Source: Tridacna crocea
Lineage: Eukaryota; Mollusca; Bivalvia; Cardiida; Cardiidae
DNA length: 64,000 bases
Assembly: GCA_943736015.1 (NCBI GenBank)
Contig: OX031063.1
Coordinates: 45,028,672 to 45,092,671, forward strand
Direction: 5' to 3'
Shown here: positions 23,901-63,780 of the stretch, piece by piece
How positions within the stretch are numbered: the stretch's first letter is position 1
Layout: every line of letters begins with the position of its first letter
Made by a program: the position numbers and the translations under genes
The notes under the pieces: generated by a model
What the model saw: only the letters and a program-made list of their open reading frames with translations
The model's database searches: none
Told to the model about the DNA's origin: nothing

Positions 23901-26900
23901 TATGTTGCTCAAATGACGAGAGTAGTCCTTGATATGGTAGAAATCTTTGTTGGAAAACGAGAAAATGCTGGTAACCAGCATTTTCTCCTTTTCCAAAAAT
24001 GTTTTCAAAAGCCTTCTTCCCCAGGGTTGAAAACATTGTGAGAAGAGGAGAAAATGCTGGTAACAGGCATTTCTTAGCTTTCAATTTGGACAAGTCGAAA
24101 AGTTTTGTAGTTGGGTAAAGAGTGTAACCCTTGCAGTGCTGGAGAAATATACTGATAAAGCAATTCCAAAGCTGTTTTTGTCAATATAATGGCAATGCTT
24201 GGAACATTGTACACTCAGATCAGATTGACCTGTGCAGTTTGCTTTTTATCTCCATTGTTGATATAGGCAAACTTTCCTCATCCTTACCCAAGTATGATGA
24301 TGATGATGATGATAAGGATAAGAATATCGGATATGAGCATAGCTTTACTCCTTCACCTAGATTTAAGTGATTTAACCCTTTCCCAAAACGACAAATTTTG
24401 GACTCTTCCAAGCCAAAAGAGTTTGCAGGCGACAATTTTAGATTTGGAGAAAATGCTAGAAAGTTCTAAAGGAAGGTAGAAAACACTGTGGGAAAAGGAG
24501 AAATTGCTCGTTATGAGCAATTTCTCCTTTTCCCACAGTGTTTTCAAAAGACGGGCTTGTTTGGGAAAGGGTTAACCCTTTCGCAAACAATCCCTGGTTT
24601 TCACGACCCTGAGAAAGAAGCCTTTTGAAAACATTGTGGGAAAAGGAGGAAATGTTGGTAACCAGCATTTCCTCCTTTTCCCACAATATTTTCTACCCTG
24701 CTGGAAACAAATTTCAGTCATTGAGTTACGTTTATTTTGTCGTCTGTAAGTGCTTTCAATTTAGACCAGTCTAAAATTTTATGGTTTGGTAAAGAGTTAA
24801 GTGAAGCAAGTACCTATTGATGTAGTTAAGTCCAAAAAATGCTCTAATTCAACTAGTGAAAATGAACTTTCTCTTATAAAATACAACATGGCACTTGTAG
24901 TGTTACAGAAAAGAACACATTCCAAATTGTTGGGCAATTATTTGGAAAACAGTGAAAGATAGAATATAGGAAGTGTCTACTTGTAGCCACTAAACCTTGG
25001 GCTGACATCGCTTATGTGGAATATCAGCCATTTTGACACTGTTGGCTGAATATAGCTTTGGTAAGGAAGTAGCAGGACAGCATGGATGGATGCTCTGGCT
25101 GCTGTTATTTAACCTTTTCCCAAACGACAAACTTTTGGACTCGACCAAATTGAAAGCATTGGCAGACGATAATCCAACTCTTGCTGAAAAGATGATTTCT
25201 GTCTATGATAGGGTAGAAAACATTGTGGGAAAAGGAGAAAATGCTGGTTACCAGCATTTTCTCCTTTTCCCACAAGGTTTTCAAAAGGCTACTATTCCAG
25301 ACCCGTAAAAACCAGGCATTGCTTGGGAAAGGGTTAACATACACTAAAATATTTTTCATTTACTGTAAAATTGTATTCTCAGGTGGGGGGGGGGGAAATG
25401 AACCATTTACTGGATGTTCAAAAAGAAAAGTCAAAACAGCTGGGAAAAAAAAAGAAGACTTTTTAGCTCACCTGAGCACAACGCTGAAATGTTCCTTGGG
25501 AGGTCCTCTTTAAAAATTGTTCACAGAATTTGATTCTGCCAAAAACTCCGGTGGCCATGGCAACCAAATGGAATTTTCTAAGAAATTCATTAAAAATCTT
25601 CTTCCCTGAAACCGCCTGCCAGATTTTAAAATAATTTCACAGAGATATTCCTTGGGTGACCCTTTTCAAAAAGTGTTTGCGAAATTTTGACCGGTCAATA
25701 AACATGACTCTGGTGAATGTGGGCTACTTGCACTATACAGAAATGAAGAAATTCTTAAAAATTCTTCTTCTTTTGAACAGCTGGTCAGATTTTGAAATAA
25801 TTTCACAGAGATGTTCCTTGGGTGACCTTTTTAAAAACTTGTTCGTGAAATTATGATTCGTCAAGAAACATGGCTCTGGTGAATGGGGGCTACTTACACT
25901 ATTTGGAAATGAAGAAATTCTTAAAAATTCTTCTTCTTTCGAATGGCCAGTCAGATTTGAAATAATTTCACAGAGATGTTCCTTGGGTGACCCTTTTAAA
26001 AAAAATGTTCATGATATTTTGATTCGTCAAGAAACATGGCTCTGGTGAATAGGGGATACTTGCTCTACATGGAAATGAAGATATTCTTGAAAATTCTCCT
26101 TCTCTGAAACCCGTTATCATATTTTGAAATAATTTCACAGAAATGTTATTTGAATGACCCTTTTCAAAAATTGTTAGCGAAATTTTGATAGGTTAAGAAA
26201 CATGGCTCTGCTGAATGGGGGCTACTCACACTGTACGGAAATTAAGAAACTCCTAAAAATTCTTCTTTTCTGAAACTGCTGGTCAGATTTTGAAAGGACT
26301 TTTACAGGTGACCTTTTGAAATTGCTTTGCAAAATAAAGATCTTGTTTCCAGTGTTTCAATACCTCAAAATAAAATGGCTATGGTCCTCTAAAAAATTTA
26401 GGTGAACGATACAGGGCCATCTTGGCCCTCTTGTTTACATGTTTTTTTTATATGTCTAGGCTGATATAGATGGTGGGCAGCTATCTATTGCCCTTGAACC
26501 TGAGGCAGCTTCCCTTTACTGTCAGCTGTTACCCACGGAAAAGCTTCTTGGATCAGAGGGTGCAAAGTTTGCTGTGGCCAGTCCAGGAACAAAGTACATG
26601 GTCATCGATCTTGGAGGTACTTTAAGATACATCTATATCGTTCTCAGGCAGTTTTTCTCCCATTTCATCATTATTTTAACCCTTCCCAAACAATCCTTGG
26701 TTTTCACAACCCTGGAAAAAAAGTAAGCCTTTTGAAAACATGGTGGGAAAAGAAGAAAATGCTGGTAACCAGCATTTTCTCCTTTTCCACAATGTTTTCT
26801 ACCCTTCCCACTACAAGTTTTAATTTTTCAGCCACATTTATTTTGTCATCTGCAAATGCTATTGTTTTAGACGAGCCCAAAATTTTATTTTTTGGTAGAG

Positions 26901-29802: not shown

Positions 29803-30110
29803 TCTCTAAACTGTTCAGCTGACAAATTCTGCTATTTTTTTTATGCAACAGATAGATTCAATCATTGAATGTCTTTTGTAAACTTTTTTCGACAAGAAAG
29901 AGTCTGTCCTCAACTCGTTGGTTTTTTCTTCCTCTTTGATTCTGGTGTTCTTCTGTAGTTGAAGTTTGTGAACGCTTAAAAAAAATGAAATTATTCTCCA
30001 ATATTTTGTGATTGTTTTAATGTATTTGCAACGATTTTTGGCCTGCATAAAAATGTGTATGACCAGTTTTTCATATTGGATGTCAATTCCTTTCTGTGTG
30101 TAGCTATTTC
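29803..30110. repeat. Duplicated block P, copy 1
   Basis: Shares TCTGCTATTT, TTCTTCCTCTTTGA and GAACGCTTAAAAAAAATGAA in order with 38118-38460. It runs straight into block R copy 1. Confidence 0.75.
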
Positions 30111-31885
30111 ATTTAGTGATTATTCTAGACCAGGCAAAAGGGCAGGGAGGCAGGAAAAAAGGGCAGGGAGGCAGGAAAAAGGGGCAGGGAGGAACAGTGC
30201 CTTGTTGAATGACCTCTCATATCAGACGAAGGCAAAACAGTGTCCTTTACTCTGTACGAAATAAGTTCTAACTATAATTTTGGATATGAATTGCATATTA
30301 AAGAAAAGAATAAGAAAAGATTCTAATCAACTCACAGACTCAAACAACACAATCTTACTATACTGGTTTTGATTGCCATGTAATATATGATCCTATGATG
30401 CACAGTCACACTTATAATATAGCTTTAAGGTAGTAGACCAGTAACACTTTTAGTGCAGCATGGAATAAAAGTTCTAGATAGTTGTTTAATACAGATTTAT
30501 AATGATATAATACTTCTGCACATTTTTAACCGACCAGAAATTCCTTTGATGTCCACCTTAAAAACAATTGTTGATCCTTTTGTTAGTTTTCAGAAAATGG
30601 AGGTAATTATTAATCTGCTTTGCAATGAGAATACAGTGGTTTAAGATATATAAATGATAATTCTAGGGAGGAAAAAAAGGAAAAAGTGGCTCAGTTAACC
30701 CATTACCACACAATTCCTACTTTTGAAGCCCCTGGGAAAGAAGCCTTTAGAAAACATTGTGGGAAAAGGAGAAAATGCTGGTGACCAGCATTTTCTCCTT
30801 TTCCCACAAAGTTTTCTACCCATCACGAAACAAATTTCAAATTCTTAGTCACTTTTATTTTGTCGTCTGCAATTCCTTTCAATTTGGACAAACCTAAAAT
30901 TTTGTCGTTTGGTAATGGGTTAAAGTAGTACAATAATACTCATTTTAATAGTACCAAATTTTGTTGGATAATATTATTGTGGAAATAGCTGTTTTCTATT
31001 ACAGGTCCACTACCTAACTTCTCATCAGATAACAACAATATCCAGAGTAATTATTAAAGAAAAACTTCTTCTCAGCTGTTTTAAGAAATGATAATTTTGA
31101 TTAAAAAACATCAAAAGGACTTAATTATTACATAGAAAGAATAACAAAATGTGTAGGTCTTCTGATGGAGTAGTGTACTTCTGCATAGCCATTCTATAAA
31201 TAGACTGCTAAAAATAGAATACTGCAATGCAGATTTTGCTTTCAAAAAATTGCCGATGCTTGAATAGCAAACATCGAGTATTTTCAAGAAAGTTGGCATC
31301 TTTGGTTTACCATCCATACTTGTAATTTATGCACAAAATATACGAAATGATAATTTCCAGATGTAAAAAGAGTTAATTCTTCTTTATTTTAAACTATTCA
31401 TGTATTGAGAAATATCATCAATTGTGTGACGTCATTTAAAGAAATCAGCAGACGTTAAAGTACCTGTTGGGGGGAAAAAAGTCAGGGTTTCGAGGGATAA
31501 AGGATAGTTTAGCAAGTAAGTGACAGATAAGGATCATAACACCCTGCTGTCCTGTCGTAACTGACGAAGTTGATAAAGGATAATTAGTGTCACCCTTAGT
31601 CTTAGATTTGCTGTATTTCATGAATATAGTCAGATCGGAAGAAATTTATGGCGAAATTTTGTGACTGTGCGAGCTTGACGAGACGGAGCCGAGACACTTC
31701 AGGCGAGTTTTTTTGCCCATGTAGCCTGGTTTCTCGTTCTCCGAAACCATAAGAATACACAAACAAGTTTTGTATGTATATGATAAGGGCAACAGGGCGG
31801 ATGATCACAGATTCGAGGGCACAAGGGCGGAGTGAAAAAGGGGCAGGGCGGGGCGCCCTGCTATTCCGCTCTAGAATAAACACTA
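30111..31885. repeat. Duplicated block R, copy 1 (about 1.77 kb)
   Basis: Near-identical to 46754-48521. Inverted bounds TTATTCTAGA and TCTAGAATAA, short GGGCAGGGAGGCAGGAAAA tandem units at the left, GGGGCAGGGCGGGGCGCCC at the right. It holds an M221 insertion at 30695-30923 that copy 2 lacks. No coding capacity recognised. Confidence 0.9.
30695..30923 (+). mobile_element. M221 element with a demonstrated TTAA target site
   Basis: 221 bp between TTAA 30695-30698 and 30920-30923. The paralogous block has the uninterrupted site GGCTCAGTTAAAGTAGTAC at 47550-47568. Confidence 0.95.
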
Positions 31886-31906
31886 ATTTCATTGTATGTT
31901 TGGTAT

Positions 31907-33094
31907 TTTTTATGCTCCCCGAAGGCCGAGCATATAGTCGCCGCTTCGTCCGTCCGTCCGTCTGTCCGTCCGTCCGAAGCCATTTCTCCACAACCCCTGG
32001 ACCAAATTGGATAAAACTTCATATATGAACTCCTTAGGGTAAGGCGCCGACATGTATTTCCCGGTTTTGCCATTTGACCCCATGTCATGGAAAAAAGGGG
32101 CTTAATGCAAAATTGCAATGTTTACTAATATCTCATTCAGTTTTTGTCAAAATTTCATGAAACTTTATTTTGTTTATGGAAAGATTCAGCATGTGCCCTT
32201 GCTATTTTTAATCTAGGCGTTTTTTAAGTTGACGTTCTGTCATGGAAAAAGGGGGTTTCTTGCAAAATTCCAATTTTTACTAATGTCTCATTCAGTTTTG
32301 GTCAAAATTTCATTAAACTTCATGGTTATGTTGTGTTTTTCAATTTGACCCTCTGTCATGGAAAAAGGGGGTTTCTTGCAAAATGCCAAGGAAAAAGGGG
32401 CCTTAATGCAAAATTGCAATTTTTACTAATATCTTGTTCAGTTTTTGTTAAGATTTCATGAAACTTCATGGTTATATCTTGTTTTACAAGTTTCAACTTG
32501 TGCACTTGTTATTTTCAATTTATGAATTATTAATGCACAAATACCTCTTTCCTGGTTTCTCAATTTGAGGCTGCATCACGGAAAAAGGGGACTTCATAGA
32601 AAATTGTTTTTCACTTGTATGTCCTACATCTGTGCTGAAAACTTTGTGAAATTTCAAATCTGAACTTGTCGAAACGTTGCCCAGGTATCTCTCTTCCAGT
32701 TTATCAATTTCAGGCTGTGTCACGGAAAAAGGGGGCTTCATGTAAAAAGTCGTTTTATGTAATATCTACTGCATGACTGGTCAAAAATTTTATGAAATTT
32801 CGAATTTTGAATTATTATTAAACAATGCCACAAATCACACACCAGTTGTATTTATTTCAATGATGCAATATTTTCTTACGGGAAAAGAGGGCTTAAAGGG
32901 GGCTTACTGGGCTTATTGTCCTCTACAAGTTTGTGTTGGCTATCTCTAAGATAGTAATTCCCTTTTCACTTCAATTTTTAGGGAGCATGAACAGGTCCTT
33001 TTAGGATAAAAGAAGGGAATTTATATCAATTTCATATATTTTATGACAAGCACTTGTTCAGGGAGCATAACCCGTCTCTGACGGCTCTTGTTTT
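31907..33094 (+). mobile_element. Long element, TATGCTCCCC head
   Basis: Head TTTTATGCTCCCCGAAGGCC, a (GTCC)n tract at 31946-31978, loose internal units keyed by CATGGAAAAAGGGG, and tail GGGAGCATAACCCGTCTC then GACGGCTCTTGTTTT. Head and tail hold short inverted GGGAGCAT/ATGCTCCC. Confidence 0.72.
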
Positions 33095-34385
33095 CACAGC
33101 AGTCACTATGGTTTCAAAGGTTGATATATTACTAACAGTACCAGTGTATGATTTATCAGTCCCAGTGTATAATTACTGTAATAGTGTGTGAGAACTCAAT
33201 GTAAGCTACTGAGTGTAAAACTGTATACCTAAACAACTCAACTTCTTCTCAGTAACTTTTGGAATAATCAAATGGAATTTTATATTCGGCTATTTTAGGA
33301 TAAAGAAGAAATACTGTGCAAAATCGGTCATAATCAAATTGCTGCCATTACTATGTCAAAAAGCATAAAAAGTCTCCATATAGAATAGAAGTCAGATGGC
33401 ATTGAAACCCGATACATCATTAACTAGTATTGCCAAAATCAGAGTCTTGCCATAAGTATGTAGGTTGGCTTTCAACTCTTTAGCAGAGGATGAAATGTTA
33501 GACTTGTCTAGTTTCAAATTTATTTTGCATTTTACAAATTACATGTATATGCAGTCTAAATAACAAGATTTGCTTTGAAAGGGCAGAAAATATTGTTGCA
33601 AATGGAGAAAATCTAGGTTACCAGCACTTTTTCACAATGTTTTCAAAAGCATTATCCCTCAAGGTCGTTAAAACTTGGGATTGTTTGGTGAAGAGTTATC
33701 TACTTTTTGATTGGTGAAAGTTTGACTAGTCTAGTTTCAAAGTATTTGCAGTTTACAAATCATATGCAGTCCAAATAACAAGATTTGCCATGAAATGTTG
33801 TTAAAAACATGGGATTGTTTGATGAAGGGTTATCTTCTTTTTGATTGGTGGAAAGTTGAATTATAAAGTTCTGTTGATTTCTATCAGGGAAAGATATGAT
33901 TTCCTTTTCTGAAATCATAAAGCCAAAAGTGTGGATATTTTGTATGAAGGATCATGAAGGGATCCTTTAACGAATAGCTCAAGTTAAGTTCCAAAAGTCA
34001 AAGTTTGTCCCATGGCATGGGGCTCATACTTTATGTAACTCTTTACCATGATAGCACCTAAATGTAATTGCACTGTATGATGGTAGAGAAAATTACATGT
34101 TAAACTTGTGTGTTTTTCAACAAATTTTGATTTGAAATAAACTCAGACGCCCCTTAAAGGGACAAGTTTTTTTTTTGCAGTGAATATTTCTTGTAAAACA
34201 CTAACATATAATACTAGATACCAGTATCTTTTCTTTGCTATTACTAAGAAACTGGATGATTACATTTCGTTAAAAGTTGTATTCTTGACCTTTAAATATG
34301 GCCATGATTGGTCTGTAATTATGATATTATTGTACTTTTTCAAATACTGTTTAATGTTATCATTTTGTAATATTCTGGACATTCA

Positions 34386-34613
34386 TTAACTCTTTACCAC
34401 ACGAGGAAATTATAGACTGGTCCAAATTGAAAGCATTTAAGACGACAAAATAATAGTGACTGAAAATTTGAAATTTGTTTTGTGAAGGGCAGAAAACATT
34501 GTTGGATAAGGAGAAAATGCTGGTTACCAGCATTTTCTCCTTTTCCAACAATATTTTCCGAAGACTTCTTTCTCAGGGGCGTCAAAAGTAGGGATTGTGT
34601 GGTAATGGGTTAA
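34386..34613 (-). mobile_element. M221 element
   Basis: 220 bp between TTAA 34386-34389 and 34610-34613. Stem arms ACATTGTTGGATAAGG and CCTTTTCCAACAATATT are partly mirrored (TTGG/CCAA in place of TGGG/CCCA). Confidence 0.9.
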
Positions 34614-34785
34614 ATGCCCTTGGAGGCTATATAGCCCATTAAGATATACCACCGAAAAAATCTTCTTTTTACTTTTGCTGTTCTTCTTTTACTGGTAGTT
34701 TCTATGCTATTGCCTCTCTAAATCCAAAGTTAAAATATTTTTGAAGTTTTCATTGATTTTAAAAATCACCCTTTAACTAATAACA

Positions 34786-34976
34786 CAGCTCCAGATAGAG
34801 GGAGTGAATTTGATTTCAGAATTAAAAATATTAATTATTCTCCACCAAACTCTTGGTTTTTGGTAATTATTAGAACCATTTGATTGAGACAATTCTTAAT
34901 GAGTACCCACAACATAGTGTTTCAAAGAGAAATAATGTTTTTAAAATACCATGACTTCCTCTTATCTAGAGCTCTG
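34786..34976. mobile_element. Palindromic element, family C
   Basis: AGCTCCAGATAGAGGGAGTG and CTTCCTCTTATCTAGAGCTC ends. The inner arms are more diverged than in the 23617 copy. Confidence 0.82.
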
Positions 34977-35532
34977 CTTTAATTACTTGTTTTTAACGAT
35001 CCATCCTTGATTACATATACAGTCATGTCATTAGTTACCGGTACTGTGCGTGTGTGTGTGATAATGTATGTTGATTAAGCTCAATTTCTGTTGTTAAAAG
35101 ATACAATACAATACAATACAGAATGACAATTGATTCAGTGTGCCTAAAGAATACCTTTTTGTACTTAATAAAGAATCTGTAAAGAAGTAATTTAGTTTTG
35201 TGTCAAATCTGCAACCAGGGTTGGGTTAATGCTTAAACACAGTTCCGAGTTTTATAGGCCTTGGAGAAAATTAGTAGGTTTGAAACATGGGAAAAGGATA
35301 AAATGCTTGTAACCACAAATTTCCCTATTTCTAAACACATTTTCCCTTACTAAGATAATTTCTATTTCAACCACATTAAAATTTAAATCAACAAGTGATT
35401 CCAATTTGGACAATCTAAACTTATATTGTTGGTAGAGTCAGTTGTACCCTTTATATATACAAAGTACATGTACAAGGGTAAAACATGCTTGCTTGCAGCA
35501 TGTTCAGATTTTAGTAAAAATCACTTGAACCC

Positions 35533-35660
35533 TTAACTCTTTGCCAGACGAAAACATTTAAAACAGTGGTCTAAAATGAAAGCATTTGCAGATGACAATT
35601 TGACAGTGGTTCTAATTGAGCAATGTTACTAAAATATGGTAGAAAACATTCTGTGAAAAG
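35533..35660 (-). mobile_element. M221 half copy cut off by the minisatellite
   Basis: TTAACTCTTTGCCAGACG through GGTAGAAAACATTCTGTG, then the 42-bp array begins. Confidence 0.65.
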
Positions 35661-37215
35661 GCAAGTTATTTAGGGCCATCATCATGCCCCAACTGCTCCT
35701 AGACAAGCAATCTAGGACCATCATGATTCCTCAACTGCTGCGAGGAAAGCAACCATAAGGGCCGCCATGATGCATTAACTGCTCCTAGGCAAGTAATCTA
35801 GGGCCGTCATGATACATAAACCGTTCTGAGACAAGAAATCTAGGGCAGTCATGATGACCTGGTCGTAAGCAAGCAATCAAGGGCCATCATGATGCCTAAA
35901 CTGATCTTAGGCAAGCAATCAATGGCCGTCATGATTCCTCAACTGCTCCCAGGAAAGCAACCTTAAGGGCCATCTTGGTACATAAATAGCTCCTAGCAAA
36001 AATTCTAGAGCAAACATGATGCCAAAACTGCTCCGAGGATAGCAATCTAGGGCCGCCATGATGGCTTAACTGCTCAGCAGCAAGTAATCTAGGGCCGTCA
36101 TGATGCATAAACTGCTCCGAGGCAAGAAATCTAGGGTAGTCGTGGTACCTAAACTGCTCGTAAATAAGCAATCTAGGGCCGTCATGATGCTTACACCGCT
36201 CCGAGGCAAGAAATCTAGGGCAGTCATGATGCCAGGACATGCTCCCCCGGAAAAATTTTGAAAATAGGACGCTCTCTGGTGCATTCTGGCGCATTTTTTT
36301 GAGGTTTATATTACGCATTTAAGCCATGCTAGGGGGGTCTGGGGGCATGCTCCCCCGGAAAAATTTTGAAAATAAGACGCTCACTGGTGCATTCTGGCGC
36401 ATTTTTTGAGGTTTATATTATGCATTTTTTTTCGAAAATTAGTCTGGCCATTTTTCATTTTCGGCCGAAAATTTGGTCCGGCCATAGCCGTACCGGCCGG
36501 ACCGCTTCCGACGGCCTTGCCTACACCGCCCCGAGGCAAGTAATCTAGGGCAGTCATGATGCCTAAACCGCTCCGATGCAAGTAATCTAGGGCCGTCATG
36601 ACGCCTAAACCGCTCCGATGCAAGTAATCTAGGGCAGTCATGACGCCTAAACCGCTCCGAGGCAAGTAATCTAGGGCCGTCATGACGCCTAAACCGCTCC
36701 GATGCAAGTAATCTAGGGCAGTCATGACGCCTCCGATGCAAGTAATCTAGGGCAGTCATGACGCCTAAACCGCTCCGAGGCAAGTAATCTAGGGCCGTCA
36801 TGACGCCTAAACCGCTCCGATGCAAGTAATCTAGGGCAGTCATGACGCCTAAACCGCTCCGAGGCAAGTTATCTAGGGCCGTCATGACGCCTAAACCGCT
36901 CCGAGGCAAGTAATCTAGGGCCGTCATGACGCCTAAACCGCTCCGATGCAAGTAATCTAGGGCAGTCATGACGCCTAAACCGCTCTGAGGCAAGTAATCT
37001 TGGGCAGTCATGATGCCTAAACCGCTCCGAGGCAAGAAATCTGGGGCAGTCATGATGCCTAAACTGCTTGTAAGCAAGCAATCTAGGGCCGCCATGATAC
37101 CTAAACTGTTCGTAAGCAAGCAATTTAGGGCCATCAGAATACCTAAACTGATCCAAGGCAAGCAATCTAGGGCCAACATGAAAAATTAAGTGCTCTGAGA
37201 CCTGCAAAAATAGGG
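35660..37215. repeat. 42-bp minisatellite, about 30 units in two blocks
   Basis: Units carry AAACCGCTCCGAGGCAAGTA then ATCTAGGGCCGTCATGA. The left block, about 35660-36234, is diverged; the right block, about 36525-37215, is more regular and tends to alternate GATGCAAG...GGCAGTC with GAGGCAAG...GGCCGTC, giving an 84-bp higher-order period. Minus-strand frames stay open because 42 is a multiple of three, reading 14-residue repeats such as SGLGVMTALDYLPR. Confidence 0.93.
36235..36524. repeat. Insert in the minisatellite with a 108-bp duplication
   Basis: CATGCTCCCCCGGAAAAATT recurs at 36238 and 36346. After the second copy comes a CCGGCC-rich palindromic stretch (GCCGTACCGGCCGGACCGC). It separates the two minisatellite blocks. 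Confidence 0.75.
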
Positions 37216-38117
37216 CCATCATTGTCTTGTATTTTTTTTTTTTTTGCGCTGCCCACAATAGTTTATACAACAAATAACTTTTTCCACATCAGCCTTGAGT
37301 ATCATCAATTTTATCTACCGGTGCTCATAATGAACCATTTTGATTCTTGTAAGTATGTCAGTATGTCCATTTACCAACACTCACTGGCCAAAACCGAGCA
37401 AAAAGAGTAATTTCATTATTTTCTCTCAACTACCATTCAGGTATACTGACAAAAATACACAGATATTTGGATAAAAAGTTTGATATATGGGTTTTTTGCC
37501 TTTCTGATTTCAAAATTTGTTTTCTAATATTGTTGTAAAGTTCGTTAAAATGGTCTACAGTTACGAAGGTCCTAGTTTCATTTACAATGTTTATAATGTC
37601 TTCTTGAGCTTAAATTTCATTCGGAATTTAACAAGCCATTTGTTCAAATTTCACCATAAATTTTCAATGATACCCAGGCCTTGGCTTGTAGGGATCGATT
37701 AAGGAGGACGAAATTGTTTTCTGCCTTTCAAGTATTTGTGGACCTAGACCTAGACACATGGTATGTTGCATTTTCTCTGTGAAAGTCCAGGGTTCAATTA
37801 TGAAATGTCGGGCTGAAACTGTCCAAAAGTGGTTCTTAAGAGTGAATATAATTATCGTTCTTCATTGGTCCTTTGGTTGACTAATCTGCCCACTCTGTCA
37901 AAGCAGAGACAGCTTCAAATAAGCTAGAAAAAGTTTACTCATTGTTCTTCCTCCAAATACAAACTTTCTTGCTCTTTCCTTTAACACTCTATATCGTATA
38001 GTTTTCACTGTTTTCAGTGACAGTTCATTTCAAATCTCCCTGCAAAGCAGTAGTCTTTTCTGTTCGCTCTAGAATCGGCATTTCTCAATGAAACTTTTCG
38101 TTAAATGATCATCTAAA
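37216..38117. other. Intergenic stretch without recognised features
   Basis: AT-rich, with homopolymer T runs. No coding frame over 62 codons and no palindromic family member was noticed. Confidence 0.6.
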
Positions 38118-38460
38118 AAGTGTAAGCTGACAATATTCTGCTATTTATTTTCATAAGACTGACAAGTTAAATCATTAAATGTCTCTTGCTTATCATTTTT
38201 TCGTGAGAAAAAGTCATTCGTCAGTTTTCAACTCGATTTTTTTCTTTTTCTTCCTCTTTGACTCTGACGTAATTCAGTGGCTGAAGTTTGTAAACGCTTA
38301 AAAAAAATGAAATCATTCTTCATTATTTTGTGATTAATTTGCCATGATTTTTCCCTGCTTAAATAAGTTATTTTGCCACGATTTTTTCCTTGCTTAAATG
38401 AGTGTGTGACCGATTTTCATGATGTGTATCAGTTTCTTTCTGTTTGTAGCCATTGCGGTA
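38118..38460. repeat. Duplicated block P, copy 2
   Basis: Diverged counterpart of 29803-30110. It ends at the insertion of the long element at 38462, whereas copy 1 continues into block R. Confidence 0.7.
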
Positions 38461-38461
38461 T

Positions 38462-40263
38462 TTTTAGCTCAGGTGCTCAAGGTGAGCTACTGTGATCGCC
38501 CTATGTCCGTCGTCCGTCGACAACTATTTCTTTAAACATCTTTTGTCCTAAACCACTGGGCCAACCTTGATAAAACTTTGCAGGGATATTTCTTGTGTGA
38601 AGCTCTACCAAAGTTGTTCAAAGAATTAAATTCCACAAATAACTCTGGTTGCCATGGCAACAAAAACAAACAGGATAAAAAAAAAACCAAAATCTTTCAA
38701 AATATTCTCCTCTGAAACGGGGAGATCACAAGTTCGAATATAGGTGCAAAGAAGGAAAACTTTAAAAGTTAAAAAAAAAAAAACCTTAAAAATTCTCCTC
38801 TAGAACTGGTAGGCATTTAGCTTTGATATTTGGTATATAGCATCTCTCAGTTCACCTCTATGCCAAGATTGTTCATTTGATGCTCCTGGGATCAAAACTG
38901 ACCTCTACCAAGTTCGTTCATATGATGCCCCTGGGGTTAAAACTTGTCCCGCCCCGGGGGGGGGGGTCACAAGTTTGAACATAGGAACAAAGAAGGAAAA
39001 CTTTAAAATTCTACTTCTGTGAAACTGGAAGGCGTAGAGCTTAGATATTTCGTACACAGCATCTCCTAGTGGACCTCTACCAAGTTTACTCGTATGATGG
39101 CCATGGAGTCAAAACTGGCCCCATCCAGGGGGTCACAAATTTGAACATAAAAAAAAATAAAAGAAAAACTTTACAATTCTTCTTTTTTGAAATAGGAAGG
39201 CGTAGGAATTCGATTTTTGTTATGTAGTAATCCTGTTCTAACTTTCTTAGTCCTCCTGACTACAATATGTTCAGTGAATTCAAAATTATGTCACCATGGC
39301 TCATGAATTAGCGCACAATATCCAATTAAAGAAATACCTCGTGAGCTTTCTAGAGGCCACATTTATGCCTCAAAAGGCCAGAAATTAAGTCAGGAAATTC
39401 GTCTTGTAAAAATATCGAATGATGTCGAGATTTGGTCAGCCGAACTCATAATCTAGGTCACTAGGTCAAACCAAACAAATACCTTGTGGGCACTTTAGAG
39501 GCCACATTTCTTACCTAATTGACGTGAAAGGTGGTCAGAGTATTTGTTTTGATTAAATCCCATAATGAATTGGAATTTGGGTCAACTTGGGTCATAAGAT
39601 AAGTCACTAGGTCAAATTAAGAAATACTTTGTGGACACTGTAAAGGTCGCATTTTTTGCTCAATTGACTCGAAAATTGGTAACAATGTTTCTCTTGATGA
39701 AAACGTTGAGGGCTATCCAGAGGCCTCATTCATTCGTCAAATGATTTGAAACTTGGTCACAATATTTGTCTTATCAAAATCTAAGATGTGTTCAAAATTG
39801 GGTCACCTTGGGTCATAATCTCGGACACTAGGTCAAAATAAGAAATACCTTGTGGACACTGTAGAGGCCGCATTTCTTGCTCAATTGACTTCAAAATTGG
39901 TCAGAATGTTTGTCTTGACGAAATTTCTGATGAGTTAGGAATTGGGTCACCTGGAATCATAAACTAGGTCACCAGATCGAGTTAAAGAAATATCTTGTGG
40001 GCAATCTAGAGGCTCAGTGTCCTTTAAAAAATGTCCAAAATGATTGCATTGACCATTCTTTTATGGGTTCAAAATTGGGTCACCTTTGGTGATAAAGTAG
40101 GTCACTAGGTCAACTGATGAAAATTTCTTGTGGACACTCTAGAGGCCACATTTCTTGTTCAGTTGACACGACAAATGGTCAGAATACGAATTATTCACAG
40201 GGAGTGAAATTTCGCCTATTGACTCAGATGAGCGATCAAGGGCCATCATGGCCCTCTTGTTTT
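38462..40263 (+). mobile_element. Long element, 1.8 kb, AGCTCAGG head and GGCCCTCTTGTTT tail
   Basis: Head TTTTTAGCTCAGGTGCTCAA, then TATGTCCGTCGTCCGTCG. The interior consists of loose units of two kinds (CTTTGATATTTGGTATATAG type, and ACTAGGTCAAAATAAGAAAT type). Tail GAGCGATCAAGGGCCATCAT and GGCCCTCTTGTTTT. No protein is seen. Confidence 0.78.
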
Positions 40264-41640
40264 AAAAAGCTGTCACCATGGTGTCATTGGTTATTATGTT
40301 CAAAACCAGTTTATAAGTTTTAGTTCTGGGTCAGAAAATTAAAGGTTTACTTTAAATCAGGCACATCTTTTCTGATCAAGTGGCTGTTTTGACCTTTATT
40401 GAGAGCTCAATTTTGGCTATTGGGTGTAGTAATATATGCCCATAAACAACTCAACTGCTCAGTAACTCTTGGAAAAATCAAAAGGAATTTCATATTCAGC
40501 TGTTTTAGGATGTATGTCAGAGAGAAGTACTGTTCAAAATTGATCATAATCGGATTGCTGCCATTAGTCTGTCAAAAACCATAAAAAAGTCTCCATGTGA
40601 AGTAGAAGTCAGATGGGATTAAAATTTGACACATCATTTACCGGTATTACCAGTATTAGAGTCTTGTCATTATTATGAAGGTTGACTTTTTTAATTCTTT
40701 AGCAGAGGATAACAAGTTAGACTTGTCCAGTCTCAAAGTATTTGCAGTTTACAAATTATATGCAGTCTAAGTATCAGGTTAGAAAATATTGTTGCAAATG
40801 GGGAAAATCCAGGTTACCAGCACTTTCTTATTTTCCACAATGCTTTCAAAAGCATTGCCCTTCAGGGTTGTTAAAACTTGGGATTGTTTGATAAAAGTAC
40901 CCACAACATTGGGTTTCAAAGAGAAATAATGATTTAGAATATAATACCATCACTTCCTTTTATCTGGAGCGCTGTTTGAATAACTTGTTTTTAATGACCA
41001 TTTGTTCATCACCTGTACAATTACATGTCATTAGTTGCCGGTAGTGTCTGTGATGGTGTGTGTTGATTAAGCTCAATTCTATTTTAATGTTGCTGAAAAA
41101 GAGGATAATCAACTGGTTGTTTTTGATATGAAGAATATCTCACGAGGATGCGTTGTTAGGCGTTGAAAAAACGAGTGCGCAGCACGAGTTTTTTTAACGC
41201 CTTACGACGCATCCGAGTGAGATATTTTTCATATCAAATATAACCAGTTGATTATTCTATTTATTATATACCTTACCAACATTATTATTTTCAATATTTC
41301 GTTTGAAAATCGAAAATAAAATGTAGTCGGAAAAAAAAGTAGTTCCTAAATTTCGGCAGAAAGTGGAAGTTGATATCGTCACTAGTGATGATATCAAAAT
41401 TTATTACACTTGGAAATTCCAGGATTTCACTGCTAGGTATATAATAATGAGAATTGATAATAATTAATACACTGTGCCTAAAGAATACCTCTATGTGCTG
41501 AATAAAGAATTTTTAAAGAGGTAATCTAGCTTAGTGTTAAATCTGTAACCAAGGTTGATTTTATACTTTATCACAATCGTGAGTTTTAATGATCCTGAAG
41601 AAAAAGGCAGTTGGAAACATTGTGGGAAAAGGAGAAAATG
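40263..41640. repeat. Duplicated block Q, copy 2
   Basis: Matches block Q copy 1 in pieces: 40420-40722 to 33195-33510, 40896-41095 to 34870-35100, 41470-41560 to 35125-35235. It includes decayed M221 copies (40695-40895, 41545-41645), half of a family C element (40896-40973) and the palindrome at 41102. No gene. Confidence 0.75.
41102..41260. mobile_element. Palindromic element specific to block Q copy 2
   Basis: AATCAACTGGTTGTTTTTGA pairs with TCAAATATAACCAGTTGATT. The arms continue through GATGCGTTGTTAGGCGTT to a CGAGTGCGCAGCACGAG centre. Block Q copy 1 lacks it. Confidence 0.85.
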
Positions 41641-42782
41641 CTTGAAACTGCAAGTTTATTCAAATGATGCCCCTGGGGTCAAAATTGGCCCCACCCCGGG
41701 GGTCACAAGTTTGAGCATAGGAACAAAGAAGAAAAACTTTAAAAATCTTCTCCTCTGAAACCTGAAGGGGTAGAGGTTTGATATTTGGTATGTAGCATCT
41801 CCTAGTGGACCTCTACCAAATTTGTTCAAATGATGCCCCTGGGGTCAAAACTTGTCCCACCCGGGGGTCACAATTTTGAGCATAGGAACAACGAAGGAAC
41901 ACTTTAAAAATCTTCTACTCTGAAACTAGAAAGCATCGAGCTTTGATATTTGGTCTGTGGCATCTCCTAGTAGTTTGTTCAAATGATGCCCCTGGGGTCA
42001 AAACTTGTCCCGTCCCGGGGGTCACAAGTTTGAGTTAGGAATAAAGAAGGAAAACTTTAAAGATCTTCTCCTCTGAAACTAGATGGCGTAGAGCTTCGAT
42101 ATTTGATATGTGGCATCTCCTAGTTGGTCTCTACCAAGTCTTTTTTTTTCAAATGATGCCCTTGGGGTGTAAACTGGTCAAAACTGGCCCCACCCCAGGG
42201 GTTACAAGTTCATAGGTACAAAGAATGAAAACTTCAATATTCTACTTCTCAAAACTAAAAGTCATAGAGCTTTGATATTTGGTATGTAGCATCTCCTAGT
42301 GGACCTCGACCTAGTTTGTTAATATGATGCCCTTTGGGTCAAAATTGGCCAAGCCCCGGGGGTCACAATTTGGAACACAGGAACAGAGACGGAAATCTTT
42401 AAAAAAAAAAATCTCTGAAACTTGAAGGCGTAGAGCTTTGATTAAAGGTATGTAGCTTCTTCTAGTGGACCTCTACCTAGTTCATTCAAATGATACCCCA
42501 GGTGTCAAAACTGGCGTTGCCCCGGGGGTCACAACTTCAAACATAGGAACAAAGAAAGAAAATTTTAAAATTCTTCTTCTCTAAAACTAGAAGGCATAGA
42601 GCTTTGATATTTGTTATGTAGCAACTCCTAGTAGACCTCTACCAGGTTTGTTCATATTATACCCTTGGGTCTCAAAGCTGCCTCAGTCCCGGGGGTCACG
42701 GGTTCGAACATAACAACAGAAGAAAAGAAACTTTTAAAATCTTCTTCTCTGAAACTTGAAGTTGCAGAGTTTTGATATTTGG

Positions 42783-43503
42783 CCAGGGTTTTCCCTCGGC
42801 TTTGAAAATTGGGGGTCATTGTGACCCCCTTCCTCATTAGTTGCGGGTCATTTCATTAATTTTGGGGGTCAAAAATACGGCTTTCTTCATCATCAACCTC
42901 AAACACGATTTACAATGCATTTTACCTTTAAACGCCGACTTCCAAGATTGAAAAGTCGGTCGATCATTTCTGACGGAAATGTCACTTTTTGACAGACCAA
43001 ACATTTTCGCCTGAATCGCTGCTTGACGTGGCTTGATCGGCAGTTGTACGAAGCAGACGATAGAAGAATTCTACAGTTTTCTTCGTCATGACATTATTTT
43101 TCCGCTAACAGAACAGACCGGTAATGTGTACTTTTATATACCAGAAGTCGTGTAAAATATGCTATGAAATACAGAGAACCCAACCACGACTTTGACCGGG
43201 CCCATATTTACGACACGTGTCCAATATACATTTCGGCAATAATGCGTAAACCAGTCTTATTCTATAAATAGATTACCGGAAAACCACTTTTATCTAAAAT
43301 AAACCCAGTAGTTAAAAAAAGAACGGTGTTCGTCTGACATTGAAGCAAGAACAAGCTTGGAATTATGACGCTTCATTCAACTTCGTACATTATTTAGATT
43401 TTGGAAAGCTGCGTCACCGATGACGCACTGTCATTTATTTTGGGGGTCATTTGAATTAAAATTGCGTCAATGACGCAGGATTTGTGCGTCATGGAAAACC
43501 CTG
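42783..43503. mobile_element. 0.72-kb TIR element with 5-bp target duplication
   Basis: Ends CCAGGGTTTTCC and GGAAAACCCTG, flanked by TTTGG at 42778-42782 and 43504-43508. The array consensus GATATTTGGTATGTAG shows the uninterrupted target. CAGGG-type ends recall hAT-like elements, which usually make 8-bp duplications, so the superfamily is open. Near both ends are inward GGGGGTCATT stretches. No transposase. Confidence 0.82.
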
Positions 43504-43664
43504 TTTGGTATGTAGAATCTTCTAGTGGACCTCTACCAAGTTTGGTCATATGATGTCCCTGGAATATAGGAACAAAGAAGGAAAGCTTTAATATTCTTCT
43601 GCTGTAAAACGGGAAGGTGTAGAGCTTTGATATTTGGTATCTCCTAGTGGACGTCTACTCAGTG

Positions 43665-43890
43665 TTTTTAGCTCACCTTAGCTCAAAGTGCTAACGGTGA
43701 ACTATTGTGATCGCCCTATGTCCGTCGTCCGTCAACAATTTCTTTAAACAACTTCTTCTCCAAAACCACTGGGCCAATCTTGATGAAACTTGGCAGGGAT
43801 GTTCCTTGGAGTAAGCTCTACCAAACTTGTTCAAAGAATTGAATTCCGCCCGTAACTCTGGTTGCCATGGCAACTAAAAGGAAAACAATC
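43665..43890 (+). mobile_element. AGCTCACC-headed element, 5' fragment
   Basis: Head TTTTTAGCTCACCTTAGCTC then TATGTCCGTCGTCCGTCAAC. It merges into the surrounding array without a clear tail. Confidence 0.65.
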
Positions 43891-44340
43891 TTCACTGAAA
43901 CTGGAATTATACTGTTGGGGTCAAAACTGCCCAAGCCCCGGGGGTCACGGGTTCGAACATAACAACAAAAGAAAAGAGATATTAAAAATCTTCTTCTCTG
44001 AAACTTGAAGGTGCAGAGTTTTGATATTTGGTATGCAGAATCATCCAGTGAACTTCTACCAAGTTTGTTCATATGATGTCCCTGGAGTCAAAACTGGGGA
44101 TGGAACATAGGAGCAAAGAAGGAAAACTTTAAATTTCTTTTTATCTTAAAAGGGCAGGGGTAGAGCTTCGATATTTTGTATGTAGCATCTTTGAATGGAC
44201 CTCTACCACGTTTGTTCCAAGGATGCTGCTTAGGTCAAACCTGACGCAGCCTCCGGGGATCACAAGTTAGAACATAGGAACACAGAAGGAAAATTTCAAT
44301 TTCCTATTTTAAACTGGAAGGCATAGAGCTTTGATATTTG

Positions 44341-44595
44341 TTAGCTCACCTTAGCACGAAGTGCTAAAGGTGAGCTATTGTGATCGCCCTGTGTCCGGCG
44401 TCTGTCCTTCGTCGGCCAGCGTCCGTCGTCCATCAAGAAATTCTTTAAACATCTTCCCCTAAGCCAGTAGGCCAATCTTGATGAAACTTGGCAGGGATGT
44501 TCCTTTGGTGAAGCTCTAAGTTGTTCAGAGAAATGAATTTCACTCATAAGCTATAGTGTAAGGTGAGCGTTCCAGGGCCAATGGCCCTTTTGTTT
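44341..44595 (+). mobile_element. Minimal AGCTCACC...GGCCCTTTTGTTT element
   Basis: A 255-bp version with both head (TTAGCTCACCTTAGCACGAA) and tail (GGTGAGCGTTCCAGGGCCAA then TGGCCCTTTTGTTT), without internal arrays. It is useful for defining the ends of the family. Confidence 0.75.
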
Positions 44596-44936
44596 TTCAA
44601 ATGATGCTGCTGGGATCACAACTGACCTTGTCCGGGGGGTCACAAGTTCGAGCATAGAACAAAAAAGAAATACTTCAAAATTCTTCTTTTCTGAAACTGG
44701 AAGGCGTAGGGCTTTGATATTTGGTTTGTAATCAACCTATTCTAACTTTGATAGCTCACCTGAGCACAACATGTTGATTAAGTTCAAAACTGGGACATAT
44801 ATATATATATATATAGCTGGAGTCAAAACCTAGGTCACAAGATTAAATTAAAGAAATACCTTGTGGGTTCTCTAGATGCCACATTTTTCGCTAAAATGAC
44901 TTGAACGGTATTTTGTGCAAAACAGAAGGAAATAGC

Positions 44937-45165
44937 TTAACCCTTTCCCAAACAATCCCTGGTTTTTACGGGTCTGGAATAGTAACCTTTTGAAAACATT
45001 GTGGGAAAAGGAGAAAATGCTGGTAACCAGCATTTTCTCCTTTTCCCACAATGTTTTCTACCCTATCATAGACAGAAATCATCTTTTCAGCAAGAGTTGA
45101 ATTGTCGTCTGCAAATGCTTTCAATTTGGTCTTGTCCAAAAGTTTGTTGTTTGGGAAAGGGTTAA
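44937..45165 (+). mobile_element. M221 element
   Basis: Exactly 221 bp between TTAA sites with a perfect 67-nt hairpin. Belongs to the subgroup with GACAGAAATCATCTTTTCAG. Confidence 0.93.
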
Positions 45166-46753
45166 AACAGTTCAACAAATCCGCTTTTCAAGACTTTCAG
45201 TCCTTTGATTGTATGTGTTGGTCAATGCCTTTCTACTCTCGGTATTTTCAGACATATACTGATTTAATCTAAACTTTGAAAAACATCGCCGCATAAGTTA
45301 GAAATTTCTAGTTTTGATTTCATTCTTTAAGTAAATGACTTTTGAGTGAGTACGATCACACTCTTGCGCTCCGGACCATGGTAACGAACGGCAACTCTGC
45401 TCGGAGATTGGAGGACGATGAGTCGATTGTCCGGATAGATAGGCCCGCTCCATAGAACCGGAAGTAAATTCCGACATTAAACGGCTGGTAAAATCTGTGC
45501 TGCACTGTAGATCTAAATAAAGACCTAAATTTTATGCATTGAGCCAAGTTGTATTGCAGATCAGGTGACTGACGCATTTAGATAACTCCTATTTCCTTTT
45601 TCATTTTTCTTATGCTAAGCTTGCTTTACATTTTGCATATTTAAGTTAGTTTATTCTCCGATCTTGTTGATCGTCCAACTTTTAATTTCTTGTTTCGTTT
45701 TCGGATCTTCGGGAAAATTGAAGTCCGAGACACATGCGAAGATTGAAATTCAACAAAGCTTGCAACATCTGATTGTTAATCTTGTACTTGTCAGTGACAC
45801 AATCCTAACAATCGCGACGCGTGTCAAAAACGTCTGTTACGAAGGGGTTGGAAGAGGATTCGGACCCAAGATGATTCGGCCCGAAGCAAAAATTCGAGAA
45901 AATTCAGCCTAATGTTAGATCATGTTCATTGGATTGATATTGTTATTTCCATATATTGTTGCATAACAATAGAATATCAACCTTCATTGACTTCAGAATT
46001 AATGCCTGGAAGTCCTTTTTTTATATTTTGAGGGCATTATCGTTGATTCTCATTACTTTGTGGTCCAATGTTTCTATCAATGTTTTCTTTGCTGCTGTAA
46101 ACAATTTCAATTTCTTAGTTATGTTTATTTTATTCAGCAAGTAGCCTTGTGGTTTGTTGGTATGCGGTAGTTACGGTCCGATCAAGAAAAACTAAAAATT
46201 TTAAAAGAGTATGAAATAATCACCACATAATTTTCTAATTTCATCTTTTAGTTGGTGTCATAGAAAATATGATGCAGTTTCAACCAAAAATCAACCTTGA
46301 CCTTCACCACTGTCCCGGCGCCATTCTGAAATTGATGCACATGACTTCGATGGTTTGCTTAAAAAAATCAATACAACTTGATAGAATTGGCGCCAATTTG
46401 CAGTCATATGATCTGAAAATATTACCACATGACCTAGCAGATGTGCTAAATACATCATCATGCATGTTTTGAAGTAAAACTGGTTAAAATGAAGGATTTT
46501 AGAGGGTAGGGTAAATAGTGTTTAGAATGTAGGTGCCGATTACATTGTTTTCACTTCCGTTATATTTTTTCTTCCTTTCTAATCTTTTATTTTGAAAAAT
46601 AAAGTTGGTTGAGGTACAGAAATGTTCAAGATATTTACAATCAAAATAGAGACCAGAGAAGCAGCTAAAGGGTGTTGGTTTTTGTTATGACGGAAAAATA
46701 CGGATTACCTCGAAGCAATATGCACCCTGAACTAACATGTTGTGGCTATACTA
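45166..46753. other. Low-repeat stretch upstream of HSPA12-like B
   Basis: No recognised palindromic family member and relatively more CpG near 45360-45480 and 45815-45900. Short frames (73 and 82 codons) resemble nothing I know. A promoter or non-coding first exon of HSPA12-like B could lie here or closer to 48730, but nothing proves it. Confidence 0.4.
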
Positions 46754-48521
46754 TTTTAGTGATTATTCTAGACCAGGCAAAAGGGCAGGGAGGCAGGAAA
46801 AAGGGGCAGGGAGGCAGGAAAAAGGGGCAGGGAGGAACATTGCTTTGTTGAATGACTTCTCATATCAGATAAAGGCAAATTAGTGTCCTTCACTCTTTTC
46901 GAAACAAGTTCTAACTATAACTTTGGATATGAATTGCATATTAAAGAAAAGAATAAGAAAAGATTCTTATCAACTCATAGACTCAAAGCAACACAATCTG
47001 ACTATACAGGTTTTGATTGCCATGTAATTTATGATCCCATGATGCACTGTCACACTTAGCTTTAATGTAGTAGACCCGTAACACTTCTGGTGTAGCATGG
47101 AACAAAAGTTCTTGACAGTTGATAAATACGGATTTATACAGATAAAATACTTAACCCATTACCACTCAATCCCTACTTTTGACGCCCCTGTGAAAGAAGC
47201 CTTTTGAAAACGCTGTGGGAAAAGGAGAAAATGCTGGTAACCAGCATTTTCTCCTTTTCCCACAGTGTTTTCTACCCTTTCCAGAACAAATTTCTATTTT
47301 TCAGTCACCTTTATTTTGTCGTCTGCAAATGCTTTCAATTTGGACCAGTCCAAAATTGTCTCGTGTGGTAATGAGTTAAGCATATTTTTTACTGACTAGA
47401 AATGCCTTTGATGTCTCTTAAAAACAATTGTTGATACTTTTGTTAGTTTTCAGAAAGGGGAGGTAATTATTAATTTGCTTTGTAATGAGAATACAATGGT
47501 TTTGGATTTATAAATAATAATTCTAGGGAAAAGAAAAAGGGAAAAATTGGCTCAGTTAAAGTAGTACAATAATACTCATTTTAGCAAATTTTGTAGGATA
47601 ATAATATTGTGGAAATAGCTGTTTTCTATTACAGGTCCACTACCTAATTTCTCGTCAGATAACAAAAAATGGCGAGAGTAATTATAAAAAAAAACAACCC
47701 TTCTTCTCAGCTGTTTTAAGAAATGACAATAATTTTGATTAAAAAGAAAAATAAAAAACTTAATTATTACATAGAAAGAATTACAAAATGTGTAGGCAAG
47801 CCTACTGATGGAGTAGTGTACTACTGCATAGCCATTCTATAAATAGACTGCTAAAAATAGAACACTGCAATGCAGATTTTGCTTTAAAAAAATTGCCGAT
47901 GCTTGAATAGCAAACATCGAGTATTTTCAAGATAGTTGGAAACTTTACCATCCATACTTGTAATTTATGCAAAAAATATACGAAATGATAATCTCCAGCT
48001 GTAATAAGAGTTAATTCAGCTTTATTTTAAAACTATTCAAGTATTCATAAATTTCACTGATTGTGTGACGTCAATTAAAGAAATTAGCAGACGTTAAAGT
48101 ACCTGTTGGGGGAAAAAAGTCAGGATTTCGAGGGATAAAGGGATGGTTTAGCAAGTTAATGACAGAGAAGGATTATAACACACTGCTGTCCTGTCTTAAC
48201 TGACGAAGCTGATAAAGGATAATTAGTGTCACCCTTAATCTTAGATTGGCTGTATTTCATGAATATAGTCAGGTCGGAAGAAATTTATGGCGACTTTTTG
48301 TGACTATGCAAGCTTGACGAGACGGAGCCGAGACACTGAAGATGAGTTTTTTGCCCATGTAGCCCGGTGGTTTGTTCTGAAACCAGAACAATACACAAAC
48401 AAGTTTTGTATGTATTTGATAAGGGCAACAGGGCCGGTGTTCACAGATTCGAGGGCAGAAGGGCGGAGTGAAAAAGGGGCAGGGCGGCGCGCCCTGCTAT
48501 TCTGCTCTAGAATAAACACTA
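46754..48521. repeat. Duplicated block R, copy 2
   Basis: Counterpart of 30111-31885. It carries its own M221 insertion at 47151-47379 and has an empty TTAA at 47556-47559 where copy 1 is filled. It ends 232 bp before the HSPA12-like B start codon. Confidence 0.9.
47151..47379 (+). mobile_element. M221 element private to block R copy 2
   Basis: Exactly 221 bp between TTAA sites. The matching place in copy 1 (ATACTTCTGCACA, about 30511) is uninterrupted. Stem arms CGCTGTGGG and CCCACAGTG. Confidence 0.93.
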
Positions 48522-61879: not shown

Positions 61880-63780
61880 AATCTCATATTTACCAAATAA
61901 ACCCTGACTGTATGGCCCTGAGTGTTGATTCTGATCATTTAACTTTTCCTACATGAATGTTTTCTACAGGATTATTTCCCTTCGTTTCAGCCACAGTTAA
62001 TTTGTCGTCTGCAAATACTTTCAATCTGGACCAGATCAATGTTTTAATGTCATAGTCTGAATCAGTATATACATTTCTCAATGATATAGTCAAAATAAAT
62101 TCACATATGATGGGAAAGAAAGGAGGAAGCTGAAGAAGAAGGAGAAGAAGGAGAAAATGATAATAATAATAAATGCATATATCCCTCGACCTTTAACCAA
62201 ATAGACCCTAGTTATATGACCATGAAATGTGGAAAGCAGGCAATGCTTTAACTGAGTATTTTACTTTTCCTACAATGTTTCCTACATGTTAAATTCCTAT
62301 AATGTAAGTCAATTATTTGTCGTCTGCAAATACTTTCAATTTGGATCAGGTCAGTAGTTTTGGTCTTGTAAATAGCATAAAGCACTATACCCGTATAAAT
62401 GTGTACAATTGATTTCAATTAACATATAACCAAATATTTAATGTACACATTCCTCGACCCTTTACCAAATAATTCTGGTGAAGTAGCATTGTAGAGTAGA
62501 GAGCGTTTTTCACAATGTTTTCCACAAGAATCATTCCCATCGTTTCAATTGCTATTGATTTTTCATCTGCAAATACTTTCAATTTGAACAAGATCAATAT
62601 TTTATAATCTAAATAATAAAATTTTATAATCTAAATAATAAAATGCAATATACATGTAACAATAATTATGATTATATAAGACAATAATTATATACATTTC
62701 ATAAGAAAAGAAACTGACTCGTGCATATCACTCGACCCTTCACCAAATAAATCCTGGTTATATAGCCTTGACGTGAGGAAAGCAGGAAACGCTTTAACTG
62801 AGTATCTCCACTTTTCCTACAATGTTTACTATAAGATCAAATCCCATCATTCCAGTTTCAGTTATTTGTCGTCTGCAAATACTTTCAATTTGAACCGGGT
62901 CACAGTTTCTTAGTCCAGTAAACAGTTATATCAGTAAACACATATGGAATCTGCACAACAGATTAACCGGATTTATCGTCAAATATACATGTAAAATAAC
63001 ATTTTACATTATACCAAGATTAATGGAGATATCACTCGACCCTTTACCAAATAAATCCTGTTTATGTAGCATTGTATAAGGGAGAACATTTTCCTACAAT
63101 GTTTTCTACAAGTTCAAATTCCATCGCATCTGCTTTTGTTCATCTAGTGTCTACTAATGCTTTCAATTTGAACAAGATCAATATTCCTAGTCTAAGTAGT
63201 TCGATGCAATATATATGTAACAATAATTGTAATCAAACACAAGTTAAAATTTAGCAAGAAAAAGAAATACACCTACATAATCATTAATCCTTTACCAAAT
63301 GAACCCTGGTTATATAGCTTAAAGGTAGGGCAAGCAGGAAACGCTTGAACTAAATATTTTCACTTTTCCTACAATGTTTTCAATGAGACCCAACTCTATT
63401 GTACCAGCATCAGTTTTGTCGTCTGCAAATACTCTCAAGTTCGGCTGAATCAGTATTTCCTAATCAGGTAAATAGATTGACAAGTATAATGTCAAAAATA
63501 CAAAAAAAATGTACTTATCCCTCAACCCTTTACCAATTTAACCCTATTTATATGGCTCTGAAGTGGGAGATACATTTTCCTACAAAATGTTTTTCAGAGA
63601 ATATTTCCCATCCTTCAAGCTACAGTAATTTTACTGTCTCCAAATACTTTCAATTTGGACAAGAACAATATCTTTGTAAATAGTTTAAAGCAATATACAT
63701 GTATGTAATACAGACAGTATCTTAACAGTCAAATACAATATTGCTAAACACAAATTTACAATTCAAAATAAGTAAAGAAA
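61880..63780. repeat. Head-to-tail array of decayed M221-like units
   Basis: Seven units whose ACCAAAT-type starts fall near 61892, 62195, 62463, 62743, 63047, 63293 and 63532 (spacing 239-304 bp). Each keeps, in order, TTTACCAAATAAACCC-like, TTTTCCTACAATGTTTTC-like and TTTGTCGTCTGCAAATACTT-like segments of M221, but the hairpin's left arm is absent. Confidence 0.82.

Follow-up and report, generated by a model that had tools for sequence, protein, structure and literature searches.

M221, an element of 221 bp at positions 30699-30919 (forward strand) of a 64,000-nucleotide stretch of the Tridacna crocea genome, is most probably a non-autonomous miniature inverted-repeat transposable element (MITE) of the piggyBac superfamily, moved in trans by intact piggyBac elements of the same genome that form a small clade, among which PB7 shows the best match of the ends. 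We put the probability of this reading at about 0.93. The stretch comprises positions 45,028,672 to 45,092,671 of contig OX031063.1 (GCA_943736015.1) and is referred to here as the window. The transposase of the PB7 clade would act on M221 by cut and paste at TTAA, with exact duplication of these four bases; at 30695-30923 the element landed in a hAT-like element that was already inserted, and repeated transposition from few source copies would have brought the family to its present number.

The insertion can be seen in a pair of filled and empty sites in two copies of this hAT-like element (copy 1, 30114-31885; copy 2, 46757-48521; both on the forward strand). In copy 1, M221 lies between a TTAA at 30695-30698 and a second one at 30920-30923, which is followed by AGTAGTAC, whereas in copy 2 GGCTCAGTTAAAGTAGTAC stands directly before an intact, empty TTAA at 47556-47559, the counterpart of the copy-1 insertion site. 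Conversely, a second and independent insertion of the M221 family, likewise of 221 bp, is present only in copy 2 (47155-47375, forward strand, between the TTAA at 47151-47154 and 47376-47379). Its 3' end, GGTAATGAG, is like that of the 7.2-kb PB7, and copy 1 has no insertion at the matching place. With the inserts removed, the two copies align over 1501 bases at 91.1% identity, and the alignment has 54 gap columns. The alignment bears out both the exact TTAA insertion and the private insertion of copy 2 that a preliminary description of the window had reported. However, the terminal bases quoted there, CCCTTTACCA, are those of other copies (each of the two 10-mers matches nine times in the window), while the copy at 30699 carries CCCATTACCA and TGGTAATGGG.

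Ends of the element and a candidate piggyBac partner

The association with TTAA holds across the 1.05-Gb genome. Exact 5' ends adjoin TTAA at 53,230 of 60,961 places (87.3%) and exact 3' ends of the GAG type at 6,972 of 8,561 (81.4%), a loss that amounts to about 3-5% drift per base; in the window, TTAA starts at 507 of the 64,000 positions. Most exact ends therefore keep TTAA, which answers the concern, raised together with the first proposal, that many copies might lack the duplication. For a count per copy, 111 full-length copies were in hand, of which nine near-duplicates were dropped; the remaining 102, old and diverged ones included, have TTAA on the left in 77 and on the right in 73 cases. 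The 41 full-length copies of the window have it on the left in 28, on the right in 28 and on both sides in 22.

The copy at 30699 differs by 6.1% from the majority sequence of its CATTACC subfamily (14 of 229 columns, TTAA included), and 26 copies of this subfamily lie 2.2-27% from that sequence, with a median of 7.0%. Its terminal inverted repeats (TIRs) are of the CCC/GGG type (CC[C/T]), but many copies have GAG in place of the terminal GGG, which is also the case in PB7; the majority sequence and PB7 have the same asymmetry, with CCC at the 5' end and GAG at the 3' end, whereas the copy at 30699 ends in GGG.

A total of 118 matches to the piggyBac transposase family PF13843 were found in the genome. 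Thirty of these loci were extracted, and clear TTAACC...GGTTAA ends are seen in several groups of them. PB7 is an element of 7.2 kb with five copies on five contigs, four of which are 99.64-99.96% identical to the fifth; two further relatives, L044 and L045, show 97.7% and 95.3% identity over the main stretch. It is bounded by TTAACCCATTACC...GGTAATGAGTTAA and carries nested MITE-like copies. TTAA flanks both sides in three of the five copies (L039-L041), with one altered end each in L042 and L043, and the 5' end together with TTAA occurs at six places in the genome, all of them exact with one mismatch allowed (these do not include L043 with its altered 5' end). In the near-identical copy L042, the right flank lacks TTAA (GAGAATC) and the left flank reads GATTTAACCC, as if integration or repair had been imprecise.

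The coding part found in PB7 consists of an open reading frame (ORF) of 486 amino acids and a separate, upstream, acidic ORF of 122 amino acids without a Pfam match, which is possibly an earlier exon. The longer frame is intact and matches piggyBat (9c0f, 9e-40) and the T. ni piggyBac (6x67, 4e-36); it has D156, D234 and D344 in three conserved motifs, which we take to be the catalytic aspartate residues, and a cysteine/histidine-rich tail. L046 is a sister element with a transposase domain 84% identical to that of PB7. L051 (2324-6578, oriented by its transposase) is another piggyBac whose transposase frame is open; it has the ends TTAACCCTATCCTCCAC...GTGGAGGATAGGGTTAA and a transposase domain 57% identical to that of PB7.

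The ends were compared outside TTAA and oriented by the transposase. At the 5' end, both PB7 and L046 agree with the M221 subfamily in 28 of 36 positions, compared with 9-18 in seven other piggyBac elements, two of which are closely related to each other; at the 3' end, PB7 agrees in 10 and L046 in 9 of 12 positions, compared with 3-6 in the same seven. The ends are thus similar to those of autonomous piggyBac elements of the same genome, not identical, and it is this match that assigns M221 to the piggyBac type. The non-autonomous, piggyBac-like identity proposed in the preliminary description is upheld by the TTAA insertion together with these ends. Of the TTAA duplication with CCC...GGG ends that it named as the hallmark of piggyBac, TTAA alone is not specific, because Kolobok elements also use it (PMC6004289). 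Likewise, the autonomous partner that it expected was found at the level of the clade, through the ends of PB7 and L046, and not as an element with the exact M221 ends.

Several points weigh against this reading. The interior of M221, including its palindrome, was not found in PB7 outside the embedded MITE-like copies. The 5' end of PB7 differs from M221 at 8 of 36 positions, and at the 3' end the similarity is gradually lost beyond about 15 terminal bases (12 of 20 positions agree), so that PB7 need not be the actual parent. No autonomous element with the exact ends of M221 was found in the genome, TTAA is present on both sides in only 61 of the 102 full-length copies and on neither side in 13, and there is no sign of present-day movement of M221.

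A refinement that is compatible with mobilisation by the PB7 clade, and to which we give slightly less than even odds, is that several piggyBac transposases are involved and that the TIR types CATTACC, CTTTCCC, CTTTACC and CTTTACT track different autonomous lines (PB7-like, L046-like and others). L046 has a perfect TIR of 14 bp, CTCTTTCCCACACA, in addition to the transposase domain close to that of PB7, and some copies of the window end in CTTTCCCAAAC on both sides; the end of L046 differs, however, from that of the CCCTTTCCCAAAC copies, and similar TIRs may simply be cross-recognised by one transposase. Judged from the ends, with no search aimed at Kolobok in this genome, it is very unlikely that M221 belongs to another superfamily that targets TTAA, namely Kolobok, with CCC ends by coincidence. 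Kolobok elements duplicate TTAA and have MITEs as well (PMC6004289), and the part of a bivalve survey that covers them reports Kolobok types almost exclusively in bivalves (PMC10294476). But the ends described for them begin with AG or RR beside TTAA (PMC6004289), whereas M221 begins with CCC, and the ends of M221 match two piggyBac elements with open transposase frames.

The ancestral empty site and the hAT-like host

The empty site of copy 2 is ancestral. The 23-mer across it, GGCTCAGTTAAAGTAGTACAATA, occurs at 703 places in the genome with at most one mismatch (a count of empty sites, not of filled ones), compared with none for the reversed pattern used as a control; among the best 100 of these places 65 are exact, one of them being copy 2 of the window itself. 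In addition, four relatives of the block, chosen from the 39 listed places besides copy 1, were aligned, and all four have an intact TTAA and no M221 at this position, from which it follows that M221 of copy 1 entered a normal, ancestral TTAA. Since piggyBac excision restores TTAA precisely, a single pair of filled and empty sites could not separate a loss of M221 from copy 2 from a site that was never filled; however, with 703 empty places and four of four relatives empty, hundreds of losses would be needed, so that a deletion or excision scar at 47556, the possible flaw named in the preliminary description, can be regarded as ruled out.

The site of the second insertion has a different history. 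Copy 1 and three of the four relatives read TTCT there, the fourth reads TTTT and none has TTAA. TTAA is present in five of the best 100 among 792 places, one of which has the copy-2 flank GATAAAATAC, and these versions stand at the top because the query itself contained TTAA. The insertion in copy 2 therefore used a minority variant with TTAA.

The 1.77-kb block that holds both sites is a dispersed, multi-copy transposable element, which appears to be hAT-like from its ends and target-site duplication (TSD). The inverted ends have the form TAGTG[A/T]TTATTCTAGA, with the TIRs TAGTGATTATTCTAGA and TCTAGAATAAACACTA in copy 1, and copy 1 is flanked by an 8-bp TSD, ATTTCATT, on the left (30106-30113) and on the right (31886-31893); in copy 2, TACTATTT flanks the element on either side only on the assumption that two bases are missing from its right end. 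We take 8-bp duplications and ends of this kind to fit hAT. A first look at the genome gave 519 candidate relatives, and the 40 that were scored show 87-100% identity. Its own TIRs, the TSD and the hundreds of relatives rule out a segmental duplication, so that the duplicated block of the preliminary description is replaced by two insertions of a multi-copy element. What remains of its claim that M221 was active after the block duplicated is that M221 moved after the hAT-like copy had landed; the landing of this one copy, not a genomic duplication, is the only event against which the pair dates M221. The many dispersed TTAA insertions, together with the empty sites in the hAT-like family, make insertion order, age and polymorphism directly measurable.

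Members of the M221 family also abut one another with one common TTAA, at 24373-24799 and 54623-54952 of the window, at 1991-2422 of L043 and at 1225-1835 of L049. A preference for insertion beside family members was not evident, as five abutting pairs among the 69 elements of the window are not above chance by a rough reckoning made without a test.

Abundance of the family and its palindromic core

The family probably has hundreds of thousands of copies. An arm of 24 bases from the core of the element matches exactly at 177,156 places on the forward and 177,278 on the reverse strand (354,434 in total), and since no element can match more than once on each strand, if local duplications of the core are disregarded, there are at least 177,278 elements. 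In its exact core arms, 19 compared with the 21.6 that the count for the whole genome predicts, the window is near the average. It contains 69 family elements, of which 43 are near full length and 53 have the core, and which together cover 19.3% of it; family members are here all those that a profile search recovers at E 1e-5, without restriction to close copies of M221. In the window and the fetched loci, 53 and 133 core-bearing elements stand against 19 and 55 exact arms, a ratio that would give about 0.9 million for the genome. As the loci were fetched for other reasons, they are not random and include the near-identical PB7 copies, and the rough extrapolation of 0.6-1.1 million copies genome-wide is therefore given as a judgement.

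The exact 5' ends (60,961 with 27 fixed bases) far exceed those of the one 3' type counted (8,561 with 23 bases). The 5' subterminal region may thus be much more uniform than the 3' region, of which other types were left uncounted. The end version CCCTTTCCCAAA followed by the next 12 bases of M221 was found at 14 places, which is not a count of that subfamily, as we take it to differ from M221 further in. In viral contigs, neither the core arm nor the 5' end of M221 had a match. At 61943-63673 of the window, about three rounds of a repeat of about 550 bp each contain pieces of M221-family sequence, possibly a satellite being built from a MITE.

The heart of the conserved core (30748-30818) is a palindrome of 53 bp at 30757-30809, with arms of 26 bp around one central base, recognised from self-matches on both strands and from the fold. 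As single-stranded DNA, M221 folds far better than its shuffled versions (z = -9.0), and a hairpin of such perfect 26-bp arms might enter small-RNA silencing. Among the 102 full-length copies, alignment columns 51-120, which in M221 hold the palindrome, are the most conserved part on average. The core is present in copies with the TIRs CCCATTACCA, CCCTTTCCCAA, CCCTTTACCACA and CCCTTTACTCCA, mostly with about 50 bases on one side of it and about 100 on the other. In the 801 most distant pairs, divergence is 59% in the flanks and 26% in the core; this contrast is biased upward, since copies with a good core are more readily picked up by the profile used for the search. In close pairs, the divergence of the core is about half that of the flanks. 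In 17 young copies, six of which are loci picked for their likeness to M221 and one M221 itself, the core diverges by 3.6% and the flanks by 6.6%, or by 4.0% and 5.2% without CpG/TpG/CpA columns. As the contrast shrinks in this way, much of the lower divergence of the core in young copies is explained by base composition, and strong constraint on the core after insertion was rejected as an explanation.

Changes in the two arms were also compared. Complementary double changes occupy 72 cells, compared with 18 +/- 4 in 500 shuffles (maximum 34), next to 384 single and 27 non-complementary double changes. They comprise 22 distinct types, compared with 12 +/- 2.8 in 300 shuffles, the maximum of which is also 22. 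Since relatedness of the copies inflates these counts, they are no more than suggestive of arms that stay palindromic through paired changes. A doubtful proposal is that the core serves as a selfish module for amplification, carried by MITEs with at least four kinds of TIR. It would be conserved among the source elements, paired changes in the arms would maintain the palindrome, and the core, not the TIRs, would enable the scale of the family. If true, such a module would let the superfamily reach an Alu-like scale, with perhaps near a million copies and roughly one fifth of the genome, by means of the transposase that a few piggyBac elements supply.

The mechanism of M221 is ordinary, textbook piggyBac; its scale and the common core are not. 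At least 177,278 core-bearing elements face six places with the 5' end of the best partner, and the family takes up 19% of a window with a near-average number of exact cores, which makes it a suitable natural system for asking why certain MITEs multiply to such numbers.

Other repeats and comparison with known systems

Further repeats occur in the window. Tandem arrays at 41651-42782 and 57345-58510 have a unit of 166 bp that holds CCCCTGGGGTCAAA; their approximate length and this motif are weak evidence of a resemblance to the bivalve satellite BIV160, of which the source excerpt gives the reverse primer as TTTGACCCCAGGGG (PMC5139131), the complement of CCCCTGGGGTCAAA, so that the match is limited to the primer region. 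Long arrays of a 42-bp unit, with 13.7 and 15.8 copies, lie at 35659-37173.

The M221 family was not found under a name in the literature searched, though it may have been named elsewhere. Among six end and core strings, one was matched in the literature, in a zebrafish gene paper, and in the relevant part of the bivalve transposable element survey MITEs are left unclassified (PMC10294476). The PB7 transposase is homologous to piggyBat (9c0f) and the T. ni piggyBac (6x67/6x68) over 433 and 464 query residues, respectively, with the three aspartate motifs in common; unlike them, PB7 is 7.2 kb long with nested MITE-like copies and has its 486-amino-acid ORF beside a separate one of 122. The Kolobok elements of Xenopus with their T2-MITEs resemble the M221 system in the TTAA duplication and in MITEs beside rare autonomous copies, but in the part of the account that describes them they have terminal AG or AGGRR and a Kolobok transposase (PMC6004289), instead of CCC ends and a piggyBac transposase. 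Pokey of Daphnia, with its MITE groups mPok1 and mPok2, is likewise described as an element of the piggyBac superfamily with its own MITEs in the same genome; as far as that description goes, it is known for its ribosomal DNA site plus other places, whereas M221 is dispersed genome-wide.

The closest description is that of the coral CMITE group, as far as the consulted part of the source extends (PMC2872659). The CMITEs of Acropora are TTAA-flanked MITEs of the piggyBac type with CC[C/T]T ends, filled and empty alleles and tandem arrays. Families with different TIRs have a common internal region that is better conserved than the TIRs, and one family is tied by its ends to the piggyBac AmiPB1, the interior of which does not explain that of the MITE (PMC2872659). 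M221 is like them, compared by description and not letter by letter, in its TTAA, its piggyBac ends and its different TIRs around a common interior. It is unlike them in its length of 221 bp, its 53-bp palindrome and its at least 177,278 core-bearing elements, as CMITEs are about 100 bp long and are given with about 1,600 copies in A. millepora (PMC2872659). Together with the coral CMITEs, the M221 family provides a second case in which conservation across TIR types is higher in an internal segment than elsewhere in the element.

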